Shown: positions 284 through 8,402 of the stretch, in pieces
How positions within the stretch are numbered: the first letter of the stretch is position 1
Layout: the number at the start of each line of letters is the position of its first letter
Translations under genes and position numbers: made by a program
Notes under the pieces: model-generated
What the model saw: only the letters and a program-made list of their open reading frames with translations
The model's database searches: none
What the model was told of the DNA's origin: nothing
Source: Clostridia bacterium
Lineage (GTDB): Bacteria; Bacillota; Clostridia; Christensenellales; UBA3700
Length of the DNA: 33,328 nt
Reading direction: 5' to 3'
Assembly (NCBI GenBank): GCA_013316135.1
Contig: WSNH01000002.1
Coordinates: 1 to 33,328, forward strand

Positions 284-312
284 TTGATATAACAAGACTG
301 TTATGATATAAT
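284..312 (+). promoter_or_regulatory. Sigma-A promoter for the DGR template RNA
   Basis: TTGATA (284-289), a 17-bp spacer, and TATAAT (307-312) preceded by TG at 304-305 form an extended -10 promoter. It reads rightward, and the predicted start near 319 lies just before the template repeat. No Shine-Dalgarno plus start codon follows in a sensible frame, which fits a non-coding transcript. It is one of the best promoter matches in the window and the only one I accept on the plus strand. Confidence 0.75.
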
Positions 313-329
313 ACTTCTATTAGGGCGTA

Positions 330-535
330 AGTCTACTGGTTGAGCGGCCGTTACGATTGTTTCCTGGCTGCGTTCCGGCAATAACAATAATGCTCAGAAC
401 GCTAATTACCTGGACGCCGCTGGCAGTTAATATAATGCGACTGTCCCATCCACGACTGGCGCCACCGGCGTTTCGGGCGTGCTTCCCGGCGGCTCGTTAG
501 CGGTTCGGCCTGCGCTTCACTCACTTGCCTACATA
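330..535 (+). repeat. DGR template repeat (TR)
   Basis: The notional frame 350-538 reads ...SWLRSGNNNNAQNANYLDA... and later ...GGSLAVRPALH..., ending at TGA 536-538. This is the layout of the variable C-terminus of DGR targets with an FGE-sulfatase / C-type-lectin-like fold: a WLRS start, an Asn-rich diversified stretch and a VRPAL end. Codons 380-409 contain 14 adenines in 30 bases, mostly AAT/AAC, as expected for adenine-specific mutagenesis. In-frame stops at 341-343 (TGA) and 428-430 (TAA), and no start codon or RBS, show that it is not translated. It is clearly more GC-rich than its surroundings. The exact ends cannot be set without the VR. The 3' GC-rich part probably contains the initiation-of-homing sequence. 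Confidence 0.8.
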
Positions 536-570
536 TGACAAGTTTCCCGCTTCCGATTTATCCAAGGATT

Positions 571-641
571 GTCGGACCGATGTATTGAGTATGAAGGGGC
601 TTGCGTCCTGCCGTAGTCTTCTGCGGCGAATCTCGTCCGAC
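571..641 (+). other. Alternative RNA fold competing with terminator
   Basis: GTCGGAC (571-577) can pair perfectly with GTCCGAC (635-641), enclosing the hairpin GCCGTAG-TCTT-CTGCGGC (610-627, one G-U). The same right arm (636-643) is also the left arm of the terminator stem. The two folds are therefore mutually exclusive, as in an attenuator. This is seen directly as complementarity; the regulatory or cDNA-priming meaning is inference. Confidence 0.45.
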
Positions 642-698
642 TGTATTGCGACGGCTTCTTGCTTTTGCATTACTCGCCTTACGGCAGTCGGATTTTTT
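636..698 (+). terminator. Terminator of the template RNA
   Basis: TCCGACTG (636-643) pairs with CAGTCGGA (685-692), an 8-bp stem followed directly by six T (693-698). The loop is long (about 41 nt) and holds only weak internal pairing, so the terminator may be leaky. It lies after the template repeat in the direction of the 284-312 promoter. Confidence 0.55.
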
Positions 699-721
699 AT
701 TTCCATTGCCAAATTTTAATC

Positions 722-1136
722 AAGATAACAGAACTAACGTCTTTTCGACACTCACCTTTTGTCTTTTCGACTGAATCAAAGCGTAGTGGATAAATCTCCA
801 CAGTTTTATATATAAGGATTGAGACCTCTCGACTTCGCTCGAGGTGACAAAACTAATGTCATTTCGACCGAAGCAATGCGTAGTGGAGAAATCTCTACAG
901 TCCATATATAATGATTGAGACCTCTCGACTTCGCTCGAGGTGACAAAACTAATGTCATTTCGACCGAAACGAAGTGTAGTGAAGAAATCTCTACAGTTTT
1001 ATATAAGGATTGAGACCTCTCGACTTCGCTCGAGGTGACAGTACTATTGTCATTTCGACCGAAGCAAAGCGTAGTGGAGAAATCTCTACAGTCCATATAT
1101 AATGATTGAGACCTCTCGACTTCGCTCGAGGTGACA
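722..1136 (+). repeat. Tandem array of four palindromic repeat units
   Basis: Complete units lie at 760-849, 857-945, 953-1040 and 1048-1136, with a degenerate remnant at about 722-752. Units are separated by only 7 bp of similar sequence, giving a pitch of 95-97 bp. They have the same sequence and orientation as the units at the left edge. The array fills the space between the 3' end of the template RNA and the 3' end of avd, so its hairpins sit where the two convergent transcripts meet. Small reading frames across it are repeat translations with no support as genes. Confidence 0.9.
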
Positions 1137-1145
1137 GTTGGACTA

Positions 1146-1628
1146 TTACTTCTTCGACCTCATCCAGCCGTTAAGCATTTTTTTGATTTCATAAAGTTGT
1201 CTGGCTATTATGCCTGTTTGCCTTATGGTAATTGCCTGCATACATCTTGACGTTTCGCCATAAAAATCTATAAGCGAAAGACTTACCATTGCTTGCTTCT
1301 GATAATCACCGCGTTTTTCGCCCTGCTCTTGATTGGCTCTATATAAATTTTCTATCAATTCGACAGAAGAATTTTGCAATCTCGTTATTATGCTCCAACG
1401 CAGTTTTTTGGGAGACTTTTCTGTGATTACAAAAATATACTCCGACAGTTTTTTAGCGGCGGTAAAAACTGCCATCTCTCTGTCTTTGAGCGGATCAAAA
1501 TCGTGTATTACATAGGGCTTTCGCGCCGCTTTGTTGGCAGCCGCATAAATTTGCTCGCTGTCATCAGGATGATTGAGTTCTTTCCGAATCTCTTCATCCA
1601 TAAAATCTTTGTTGCTTTGTTCTTCCAT
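1146..1628 (-). CDS. avd: DGR accessory variability determinant (Avd-like)
   Basis: This 160-residue protein has a charged N-terminal part of about 55 residues. An all-helical region follows, with helices near residues 55-70 (AVFTAAKKLSEYIF), 75-100 (LRWSIITRLQNSSVELIENLY), 108-135 and 137-155. This four-helix-bundle pattern, with basic and aromatic positions, matches the Avd / 23S-rRNA-intervening-sequence-protein family. Avd forms a pentameric barrel that binds the RT and template RNA. Known bacterial Avd proteins are nearer 125 residues, so the acidic N-terminal extension is unusual. The gene starts 36 bp after the RT stop, with AGAGGAAA upstream of its ATG, and is probably co-transcribed with the RT. 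Identification rests on the helical pattern and the location rather than on a catalytic motif. Confidence 0.8.
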   Translation of the reverse strand: MEEQSNKDFMDEEIRKELNHPDDSEQIYAAANKAARKPYVIHDFDPLKDREMAVFTAAKKLSEYIFVITEKSPKKLRWSIITRLQNSSVELIENLYRANQEQGEKRGDYQKQAMVSLSLIDFYGETSRCMQAITIRQTGIIARQLYEIKKMLNGWMRSKK

Positions 1629-1664
1629 TTTGTTTTCCTCTTTTGTGTAATGTATATTTAGCGT

Positions 1665-2780
1665 TTAGGTAATATTTGACGTCTCATTGCGCTCATTCAG
1701 CGCAAAATCAAGTTTGTCTTTCAATTCTTTTTCCAACTTCCTACTTCTCGAATACTTCAAATGACCGTGAAATGCCGACAAAGACATTCGCACTCTTTCT
1801 CCGTTGATTATTTTGTCATAATACGCCTTTTTGAGAAGTCTTGCGCGCCATCTGAAACGACGCTTCGTCATTTTCTTGACAGTCTTGATTATTTCGCCGT
1901 TGGGACCTACGCAAAAGCGAAAGCCAAGATAAGTCACGCCGTTTTTCATAGGAAATATCTGCGTCTTGGAATTGAGCGAAAGTTTTAGTTTGTCCGCGAC
2001 CTTTTCTATCTCCGATTTTACATAGCGCAAATACTGCAAGTCTTCGTGCACCAATACAAAGTCGTCCATATATCTAGAATATACTTTTACTCTTAGTTTC
2101 TCTTTGACCAATCTGTCTATTGGGTCAAGATAATACATCCCAAAAAGTTGACTGGTTTGATTGCCTATCGGTATGCCCCTGCAAGTCGTTTTGCCCTCGC
2201 CGAGCGACCTTATTCCATATCTGTCAAGAAAATCTTTTTGGGTATGGTAGCCGTCTATTACTCTTTCAAGCATTGTCTTGAGCCTCTTGTCTGCAACTAC
2301 TGCGCAAATTTTTTGCTTGAGCACGTCGTGCGGTACGCTGGGGAAATATTTGAGAATGTCGCATTTGAGAAAATATCCCTGCGAGCCGTAACTCGCTATA
2401 TGCTCCCTCAACATCTTTTCAAATCTTTTCAATGCAAACAATGCGCCCTTGCCCTTTTGGCATACGCAATTGTCATAAATAACTTTGTTTTTAAAATACG
2501 GCATCAACAAATCGTCGCACAGCACTCGCTGAACAAGTCTGTCCGAATAAAATAAATTTTGTATTTCCCTGCATTTGGGTTCGTATACCAAAAAAGTGTT
2601 GTATCTGCCAAACTTATATGTGCCGTCATTGAGCCTCTTGTGCATATCGTAAAGATGCTCTAGCATTGCAGTTTCAAATTTGACGATGGGCTTTTTGCTC
2701 CTGCGCGACGCCCGACTCTTTCTATGAGCCGCATACAACGCCTCAAAAGTAAATAATTCTTCAAAGGTAGTCTCTATCAT
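1665..2780 (-). CDS. DGR reverse transcriptase
   Basis: This 371-residue RNA-dependent DNA polymerase copies the template RNA into adenine-mutagenised cDNA for homing into a variable repeat. Visible RT motifs are LKCDILKYFPSV with catalytic Asp141 (motif A), RGIPIGNQTSQLFG at 201-214, YSRYMDD at 234-240 with the catalytic Asp pair, and GVTYLGFRF at 281-289. IGNQTSQ fits the (I/V/L)GxxxSQ signature that separates DGR RTs from intron and retron enzymes. The C-terminus is a short basic helical thumb (residues about 300-350); there is no maturase or HNH domain. Start: ATG preceded by GGAGAAGAG. It begins 16 bp after trmL and is followed by avd. Full-length and apparently intact. Confidence 0.95.
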   Translation of the reverse strand: MIETTFEELFTFEALYAAHRKSRASRRSKKPIVKFETAMLEHLYDMHKRLNDGTYKFGRYNTFLVYEPKCREIQNLFYSDRLVQRVLCDDLLMPYFKNKVIYDNCVCQKGKGALFALKRFEKMLREHIASYGSQGYFLKCDILKYFPSVPHDVLKQKICAVVADKRLKTMLERVIDGYHTQKDFLDRYGIRSLGEGKTTCRGIPIGNQTSQLFGMYYLDPIDRLVKEKLRVKVYSRYMDDFVLVHEDLQYLRYVKSEIEKVADKLKLSLNSKTQIFPMKNGVTYLGFRFCVGPNGEIIKTVKKMTKRRFRWRARLLKKAYYDKIINGERVRMSLSAFHGHLKYSRSRKLEKELKDKLDFALNERNETSNIT

Positions 2781-6281: not shown

Positions 6282-6317
6282 ATTAAGCGTAGGCGCACTG
6301 CTATCGCGTTGCTTAAT
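6282..6317 (-). other. Small inverted repeat between flippase gene and mazG
   Basis: ATTAAGC (6282-6288) pairs with GCTTAAT (6311-6317) across a 22-nt loop, directly after the flippase stop codon. No T-run follows, so this is at most a weak terminator or an mRNA-stabilising hairpin ahead of mazG. Confidence 0.3.
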
Positions 6318-7876
6318 CATACACTCTTGTAATATCCAGTCTTTTTTAATAACCGCGCGAGTTTGTTGCCAAGCGGTAGCATCTGTATCTCTTTTTGTTC
6401 CACCGCTCTCATTACAAGCAATGACACCATATATGCCGTCGCGCCGACGCATACCGCATAGACGAGAGCCCATATATTATTGCGTATCAATACCCCCGGC
6501 AACATTACTACTGACATTATAGCACCCGAAAGCGAAATTTTACTAATACTTTTGAAGAGTTTCGCATTTTTACCCACAAGTTTGTTGTAATATACGCCGT
6601 TGAGCGTAAGCGCAGTGAGATAAAAAACGATTGATGACACGCCGCTTGCCGCAATACCCCATCTCGGTACAAATATCAGTTCTATGAGTATCTTCAGCAA
6701 GCCGCCCACGGAAATGTTGATAAGCACCGGACGAAGTCTTCCCAACCCCTGTAATATCGCGTTAAGCGCTTCGAGCATAGAGAGCAACAACACGTTGATT
6801 GCCGTCAACGAAAGCAGATACGCCGTCAAATCCCTATGCGACTGACTTAGCGAGGGATAAAGTATTCCGACAACTTGACGCGACATTATCGCGCCGCCCA
6901 AAAAGAAAGGCATTGCTATCATAAGACACATCTTCAAGGTCGTCGCGGTCTTTTGCTTGACAGAAACAACGTCGTATCCCGCCATTGCGCTTGCCACCGC
7001 AGGTACGATTGCCACCGATATAGACATTGCAAGCACAATAGGCATATTTATCACAGACGCCACGGGTCCGGTGAGTATGCCGTATTGACTTACCGCATCG
7101 CTTACTCCGCCCTTGATAAGCAAGTTGACGACCATAACGCTGTCGATAAAGGCTATCAGCGGAAATATAAAACCGCTTGCCGTAATTGGCAAAAAAGTCG
7201 GGAAAAATTTATATTGGGTAGCCAACGACGGCAATCGTCTCTCGTCTTTTGCAGAAACGGCGTACCAAATAAAAACAGTCAAAAGCGAAACAAACTCGCT
7301 TATGCTTACTGCTATCAACGCGCCTGCTACGGCTTGCGTCAGTCCCCTTGGCATCAATAGATATGCAAATAGCAATCCAAGCCCAAACTTGACAAAAACC
7401 TCTACTATCTGACTTACGCCCGACGGCATCGTGTTGCCGTGTCCTAAAAACCATCCTTTAAACACTCCTGCCAGGGCAACAAATATAATTGCAGGCGCTA
7501 TTGCAATATAGCATATATAAACTTCTGCCTGCGACTGCGCGCTTGCCATAAGCCCGGAGAGCAACACCGTAACCGTTGCTCCCACTGCTCCCGCAAAGAC
7601 GGCGTAGAACGCCGCTTTTCTGACGATCGCCCGCACCGCGCCGCCCCTGTCTCGCGACAGTTCTGCCGATATCTGTCTCGACAACGTAAGCGGTATTGCG
7701 TTGCTTGTAATTGCAAGCAAAAGCGCAAAAAACGGAAAAACCAGTTGATAATAACCTATGCCTTCCGCGCCCATAACGTAGGTAAGCGCTATGCGATACG
7801 CTCCGCCCAACAACTTTGCAGCTATTGAGCATACCGCAAGCAATATTGCGCCTTGCGCTATCGTACGTCTTTTCAT
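6317..7876 (-). CDS. SpoVB/YabM-like MOP-superfamily flippase
   Basis: This 519-residue polytopic membrane protein of the oligosaccharide/polysaccharide flippase (MATE/MurJ/SpoVB-like) superfamily has about 14 hydrophobic segments. The N-terminus QGAILLAVCSIAAKLLGGAYRIAL is typical of SpoVB-like proteins, as is GAEGIGYYQLVFPFF. Members move lipid-linked sugar intermediates across the membrane; SpoVB acts in spore cortex synthesis, while the YabM branch next to spoVT is less well defined. Gene order (spoVT before, yabN after) argues for the YabM branch. It begins 1 bp after the spoVT stop with only a weak RBS, suggesting coupled translation. The last 25 residues are basic and soluble. Confidence 0.9.
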   Translation of the reverse strand: MKRRTIAQGAILLAVCSIAAKLLGGAYRIALTYVMGAEGIGYYQLVFPFFALLLAITSNAIPLTLSRQISAELSRDRGGAVRAIVRKAAFYAVFAGAVGATVTVLLSGLMASAQSQAEVYICYIAIAPAIIFVALAGVFKGWFLGHGNTMPSGVSQIVEVFVKFGLGLLFAYLLMPRGLTQAVAGALIAVSISEFVSLLTVFIWYAVSAKDERRLPSLATQYKFFPTFLPITASGFIFPLIAFIDSVMVVNLLIKGGVSDAVSQYGILTGPVASVINMPIVLAMSISVAIVPAVASAMAGYDVVSVKQKTATTLKMCLMIAMPFFLGGAIMSRQVVGILYPSLSQSHRDLTAYLLSLTAINVLLLSMLEALNAILQGLGRLRPVLINISVGGLLKILIELIFVPRWGIAASGVSSIVFYLTALTLNGVYYNKLVGKNAKLFKSISKISLSGAIMSVVMLPGVLIRNNIWALVYAVCVGATAYMVSLLVMRAVEQKEIQMLPLGNKLARLLKKTGYYKSV

Positions 7877-7877
7877 A

Positions 7878-8402
7878 TTAACCGATATTGTACGTCAGAT
7901 AACCTGCCATTGCATCGCAAAGCGCCATATCTACCGTGCCGAGTTTTTCTGCCGAAAGAATGATACCGCCGTATAAATCGCCGCTGCTGATAAGCGGAAC
8001 AATATACTGCTCTCCGCTTCTCTTGACTTGCATATCGTCGACAAGGCGCACGCTCCTGTCCTTGATAAGCCTGGACTTTCTATCGTCAAGCACACCGTAG
8101 AGTTCGTCGCTTATATCTTCGCCCTGCAAGCCCTCTTGACCGCCAACGTGCGCCAAAATACTGCTTGTGTCGCAAATTGCAACTTCTTTGCCGGTATTCT
8201 TATAAAGCACTTTGCTTATAGCGTCAAGCTGTTCTGGCGTAGCGCCTACTTCATTGTATTTCTTGAACACTAATTCACCGCTTTCGTTGGTGAATATTTC
8301 GAGAAGTTCCCCCTCTTTTAATTTGAGCACCTTCCTCAATTCTTTGGGGATAACGACTCTTCCCAATTCGTCGATTCTTCTTACTATACCTGTCTCTTTC
8401 AT
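7878..8402 (-). CDS. spoVT: Stage V sporulation transcription regulator SpoVT
   Basis: This 174-residue protein has an AbrB/SpoVT swapped-hairpin DNA-binding domain at residues 1-50 (MKETGIVRRIDELGRVVIPKELR...). A GAF-like sensor domain follows (about 55-174, with DAISKVLYKNTGKEVAICD and YIVPLISSGDLYGGIILS). In Bacillus (about 178 residues), SpoVT tunes late forespore gene expression. The reading frame extends upstream to 8474, but ATG at 8400-8402 has GGAGGT at 8407-8412 and gives the exact family N-terminus. Its presence suggests that the organism can sporulate or descends from a sporulating lineage. It heads the flippase-mazG-dus series. Confidence 0.95.
   Translation of the reverse strand: MKETGIVRRIDELGRVVIPKELRKVLKLKEGELLEIFTNESGELVFKKYNEVGATPEQLDAISKVLYKNTGKEVAICDTSSILAHVGGQEGLQGEDISDELYGVLDDRKSRLIKDRSVRLVDDMQVKRSGEQYIVPLISSGDLYGGIILSAEKLGTVDMALCDAMAGYLTYNIG

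Follow-up and report, generated by a model that had tools for sequence, protein, structure and literature searches.

The question raised by this locus is whether a reverse transcriptase (RT) gene, an accessory gene and an adenine-rich repeat in the genome of an uncultured Clostridia bacterium form a genuine diversity-generating retroelement (DGR) and, if so, what that element writes to. DGRs are bacterial systems in which a short RNA template is copied with deliberate errors into the gene of a surface protein. The window analysed here is the whole 33,328 nt stretch of contig WSNH01000002.1 (assembly GCA_013316135.1, Clostridia bacterium); a reading made from its sequence alone had considered a DGR nearly certain, with RT, Avd and template intact, and had seen no target. 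The features of the locus are as follows.

284-312, plus strand: sigma-70-type promoter of the template RNA, with -35 TTGATA (284-289), a 17-nt spacer and -10 TATAAT (307-312); consensus scan, 11/12
320-700, plus strand: template RNA unit (leader, template repeat, structured tail, T-run), by homology to tandem units in relatives; transcript ends inferred
about 360-521, plus strand: template repeat (TR), encoding the end (WLRSG...AVRPALH) of a putatively lectin-like domain of the target
428-430, plus strand: in-frame TAA within the TR, an adenine-mutable stop
516-693, plus strand: conserved structured RNA tail of 39 pairs, followed by the T-run; covariation, n = 22 homologous units
1146-1628, minus strand: Avd-like accessory protein, 160 aa; bAvd and PHROG matches
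1665-2780, minus strand: DGR reverse transcriptase, 371 aa; IGNQTSQ and YMDD motifs

The reverse transcriptase, Avd and template RNA of the window

Both motifs that had been read in the RT, YMDD and IGNQTSQ, are present in the 371-aa protein, which matches the Pfam RVT_1 profile (6.6e-17) and the PHROG reverse transcriptase family (9.4e-96). Its top match among solved structures is 8ub7 (9.3e-33), which we take to be the RT complex of the Bordetella phage DGR; the best group II intron RT reaches only 2.8e-9 and a retron-type RT 1.3e-4, and kinship with either of these, which would have refuted the original reading, is not what the comparison yields. Adjacent TR and VR (variable region) sequences in relatives likewise place the RT in the DGR class. 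A group II intron or retron identity was also rejected on the grounds that equivalog cut-offs are not reached, Rfam gives no match and the RT is far nearer to DGR RTs. The next gene, described beforehand as Avd-like, is recognised as such by bAvd (PF22296, 2.8e-10, slightly over the curated cut-off) and by the PHROG family 'Avd protein of DGR' (6e-15), with a further match to the NCBIfam model DivGenRetAVD (2e-13) that falls under that model's cut-off. In three relatives (G004, G013 and G014) RT and Avd are fused in a single open frame of 547 to 558 aa, with both domains identifiable in the G013 protein. The fusion frames are:

L043:8893-10536, minus strand
L044:17425-19098, plus strand
L045:2418-4094, plus strand

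The template unit is convergent with RT and Avd, which lie on the opposite strand. As had been proposed, it is a plus-strand, adenine-rich and stop-containing template, and the TR translates as WLRSGNNNNAQNANYLDAAGS*YNATVPSTTGATGVSGVLPGGSLAVRPALH. The TTGATA and TATAAT hexamers also precede A-rich templates in six relatives (G008, G001, G009, G004, G013 and G014). The stop TAA is common to the window and to the A-rich templates of G008, G001 and G009 and reads TAC in the G008 target; with an adenine error rate of 0.3065, taken from another enzyme, that of phage BPP-1 (PMC12875486), we estimate that it would remain a stop in about 62% of copies. The contig ends 283 bases past the template promoter, and a single A-rich template is seen in the window itself. 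Arrays of a ~95-base interspersed repeat (GACCTCTCGACTTCGCTCGAGGTGACA ... TGTCATTTCGACCGAAG...) flank the template at positions 1-150 and 760-1140.

The tail comes after every full template unit. Its structure is supported by covariation among the 22 homologous units, in which 95% of pair cells are paired and compensatory changes, altering both sides, occur in 24 pairs. None of 500 shuffles gave a pairing signal as high, without correction for relatedness among the units. Sliding the pairs abolishes the signal, a control that is biased in favour of the tail because the structure was derived from the same alignment. Rfam contains no match for the tail. Of 45 genomes searched with a covariance model (R1), the 12 family genomes with a close RT gave a hit and the remaining genomes, those without a close RT, gave none; since R1 was built from units of most of those 12 genomes, only the absence elsewhere is informative. 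At four loci (L103, L106, L111 and L116) the full tail is found on the last template only. A metagenome-assembled genome (MAG) labelled Corallococcus (Myxococcota; L163) also contains a member of this DGR clade together with the structured tail; probably the label is in error or the contig was mis-binned.

Variable regions in related genomes

The reported lack of a target extends to the whole assembly of the organism (226 contigs, 91% complete), in which neither BLAST nor A-masked patterns recovered a copy of the TR and a protein search recovered no close target homologue. The expectation that a copy of positions 330-535 differing at adenines should exist was therefore not met in this incomplete MAG, but it was met in the closest species, G008, whose RT is 97% identical to that of the window. 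The variable region (VR) of G008 differs from the G008 TR at eight positions in 156 nt, all eight at TR adenines, and over the compared stretch two positions distinguish the TR of the window from that of G008. Because a nearly identical template is thus paired with a target that differs from it only at adenines, the window template is real. With an RT that matches DGR RTs, this bears out the diagnosis made from the sequence: positions 284-2780 are the core of a real DGR, consisting of RT, Avd and template RNA. The RT is intact, Avd is present and the template is genuine, as had been suggested, while present activity of this copy has not been shown.

The G008 target is broken across two contigs precisely at the VR. 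The G001 target is interrupted there as well, with its first half on the same contig as two template units and the remainder on another. Given these breaks, and a window contig that ends near the template promoter, we infer that the simplest and best reason for the missing target is a gap in the assembly, the contig having stopped at the template array. Adenine-directed variation recurs in other relatives: L117 has 12 of 12 mismatches at adenines, and G003 (L048) has 12 of 13, the remaining one lying at the 3' end of the template. The two kinds of sequence have distinct 3' ends, CACTTAAATCT-like in the VR and CACTCACTTG-like in the TR. In known DGRs transfer is one-way, and its direction is set by the differing 3' ends of TR and VR.

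An initial TR/VR scan limited to short flanks detected pairs in distant relatives alone and missed those of the clade because the targets lie at least 2 kb away or in trans. A search pattern extending beyond the 3' end of the VR likewise missed targets that a shorter pattern recovered. As to the lectin-like assignment of the target, the DUF6273 match in the G014 target is barely over the cut-off (3.5e-5), and an AlphaFold model of the domain (pLDDT 43) is too poor to judge the fold.

Genomes of the genus (e.g. G002, G004 and G012) each encode up to 18 large paralogous proteins with the same lectin-like domain. G002, in which no close RT turned up, has such paralogues too; most of the paralogues are without a matching template and may be former targets. 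In the window, positions 13287-33310 on the minus strand encode three consecutive, very large proteins of 2125, 1900 and 2637 aa, predicted to be surface proteins and beginning with signal-like sequences; the first alone has a match, a weak one to MBG_2.

Multiple templates and stop-bearing templates

Several template units per genome or locus are found in relatives of the window: four in G001, G006 and L103, three in G009, L106, L107 and L116, and two in L111. The three units of G009 adjoin Avd. In G001, three lie at one contig end, and one more, with a partial further copy, is on a small contig. A 3-kb contig of G001 (L062:1-3002) contains the first half of the target, a stop-bearing unit of the kind described below and an A-rich unit, and is cut at both ends inside the repeat; the target of this genome is situated past the stop-bearing unit. 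Two of the four G006 units are far from the RT, so some templates of the clade are located in trans. The G001 target is a mosaic, with template A covering VR positions 0-85 and template B positions 75-149 and with mismatches at adenines only; more than one template therefore acted on one target. Three units, at L107:3463-3579, L107:3837-3950 and L061:9830-9979, are poor in adenine yet have an open frame and the full tail, as though a template were storing a fixed variant.

Six genomes (G001, G004, G006, G009, G013 and G014) contain a second kind of template, which is short, adenine-poor and stop-bearing, and which we refer to as null. Null templates keep the usual ends and place a TAG 2 to 6 codons after WLRS; they contain 3 to 10 adenines, versus 21 to 35 in A-rich templates, and in G001, G004, G013 and G014 their length also shifts the frame. 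Truncation at contig ends was rejected as an explanation, the short templates being internal to contigs and equipped with leader and tail. By consensus count only, their promoters score 7 to 10 of 12, versus 11 of 12 for most A-rich units. The null tails of G013 and G014 give low scores and contain insertions; the ~95-base repeat seen in the window is inserted in both.

In three genomes the null sequence is also found in a target. The G004 target has that genome's own null between the target's flanks, with 58 identical bases, and the protein ends in WLRSAC*; the G013 target has the different null of its own genome (63 identical bases) and ends in WLRSAV*. A G006 target (on C2) ends in WLRSGVTSV* and has 88 bases identical to the null of its genome. 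This broken target was found first, and a search of the genome with it then uncovered the null unit at position C3:204600, on the same contig as the RT but about 180 kb away, with a leader and a full tail (168.8 bits). Between any of these OFF targets and the null of any other genome, at most 23 bases are shared. The null-bearing targets keep the target-type 3' end (...TTAATCT) and not that of the template. Beyond the stop the frame is open for 1913 aa in G004, 1929 aa in G013 and at least 821 aa in G006, which suggests recent or reversible breaks rather than old pseudogenes. A second G006 target, on a separate contig (C11), is intact and is matched to another template, with 9 of 9 mismatches at adenines. 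Altogether, the null allele is present in three of the seven targets found in the null-bearing subclade. At another locus, L112 (TR 6300-6413, VR 7787-7900), the VR retains the in-frame TAA of an A-rich template while other adenines are changed, and 1593 codons beyond it are open in frame.

In the RT tree, all six null carriers fall within a ten-member group (support 99/96), and the window is nested between the null carriers and G008. Among 74 more distant DGR loci, retrieved with the same RT profile, no short template copy with both ends was found; each has essentially a single template, located on the strand of the RT. Neither the covariance model nor the target search detected a null unit or a target in the window's own assembly, and a null unit beyond the contig end in this genome is inferred, not seen. 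The data are single MAGs, one per species and without reads, in which mixtures of ON and OFF states cannot show.

A proposed ON/OFF system and its relation to known systems

We consider it probable that in this clade a multi-template DGR has two roles, diversifying a lectin-like surface protein and writing an OFF allele that can be reversed. A chromosomal DGR would employ one RT-Avd pair to serve several independently transcribed template RNAs. The A-rich templates would be reverse-transcribed with adenine errors into the VR of a large membrane-anchored DUF6273 (lectin-like) protein, and this rewriting would give rise to new binding surfaces. The subclade of the window would possess, in addition, a short, adenine-poor kind of template with a TAG, usually accompanied by a frameshift, between the same homology arms. 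Once written in, it would replace the VR by a stop and turn the target OFF, and a later write from an A-rich template could restore the frame and turn the target ON again. The identity of the DGR, the adenine bias of TR-to-VR changes in relatives, the multiplicity of templates, the null templates and their identity to targets in three genomes are established at the level of sequence; the template-to-target direction, the reversibility, the adaptive value and mutagenic retrohoming in vivo are inferred.

Three other explanations have to be weighed, and none is excluded in the absence of reads or experiment, although specific evidence speaks against each. The element might be an ordinary DGR with one working template per target, the short stop-bearing templates being duplicates in decay with internal deletions, and the OFF targets being accidental copies from dead templates. 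Duplicate templates are on record in DGRs (PMC6642488), the short units do lack the A-rich middle, deletion between short repeats is a common route of decay, and the altered tails of the G013 and G014 nulls would fit. Yet six species retain a null, with the TAG at almost the same codon despite turnover of the surrounding sequence, and the nulls keep the promoter region, the leader and the 3' initiation end, together with a full tail in G001, G006 and G009 (160 to 169 bits). The G001 and G009 nulls, moreover, look orthologous and occupy the same position, at the array's far end, and a null allele is present in three of the seven subclade targets. We regard decay as unlikely.

Still less credible is a flow from target to template, by which the null and adenine-poor templates would be captured variants and not donors. 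The adenine-poor open templates of L107 (units 2 and 3) and L061 do resemble mutated variants lodged in template units, but transfer in known DGRs runs one way, and the difference in 3' ends on which this depends is observed here; the G006 null contains sequence without an A-rich relative, and the TAG null recurs in six species. Very improbable, finally, is an origin of the null-bearing targets as assembly chimeras, in which the assembler would have passed from the target into the template and returned by way of ends that both possess. On each side 11 to 25 identical bases are common to templates and targets, contigs of G008 and G001 do break there, and at TR/VR repeats a chimera cannot be fully excluded without reads. 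Against it, the identical blocks span just 58 to 88 nt, within the reach of ordinary reads, the effect is seen in three assemblies from separate projects, the joined target retains its own flanks, the G006 donor is on a different contig from the target, and targets with an A-rich VR in G003, G014 and G020 assemble without any such effect.

Extending the OFF-allele reading, it is conceivable, though we hold this only tentatively, that the clade has an RNA-templated, programmed ON/OFF system, in which A-rich templates would yield new variants, stop-bearing ones silencing and adenine-poor open ones (L107, L061) the rewriting of a fixed variant, the array serving one or several surface proteins as a repertoire that is inherited and can be edited.

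The clade shares with the DGR of Bordetella phage BPP-1 (PMC12875486) a DGR-type RT with YMDD, Avd, adenine-directed variation, a target that is putatively lectin-like and a structured RNA after the TR. BPP-1, however, has one template, on the RT strand and in a phage, whereas the clade has several convergent units with their own promoters, a chromosomal location and short stop-bearing templates. More than one TR per system is also described for Stenotrophomonas SKA14, which has two (PMC6642488); the searched parts of that multi-TR survey contain no short stop-bearing template and no target with a copied stop. TR variants are known to differ between strains and between people (PMC4891356). The conversion of Borrelia vlsE from silent cassettes (PMC2632889) resembles the clade in its donor archive, single expressed locus and mosaic products, but the donors of the clade are RNA templates that an RT copies with mutagenesis at adenines, and one class of them encodes OFF. 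Surface proteins that are phase-variable by slipped repeats or inversion reach the same proposed outcome, a reversible and heritable loss of the protein; in the clade, by contrast, reverse transcription of a dedicated RNA template would write the OFF state.

DGRs are viewed as pure diversifiers, and their template codons are said to avoid stops (PMC10907252, PMC12875486). Among the open-access papers searched, subscription papers being outside the search, neither a template with a stop nor an OFF allele written from a template was reported. The structured tail offers a search model for template RNAs that is independent of finding the target. Self-contained template RNAs that have their own promoters and act in trans would show a natural form of a multi-template writing system. 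If the proposal is true, a DGR also silences its own target, on purpose and reversibly, which would amount to phase variation by reverse transcription.
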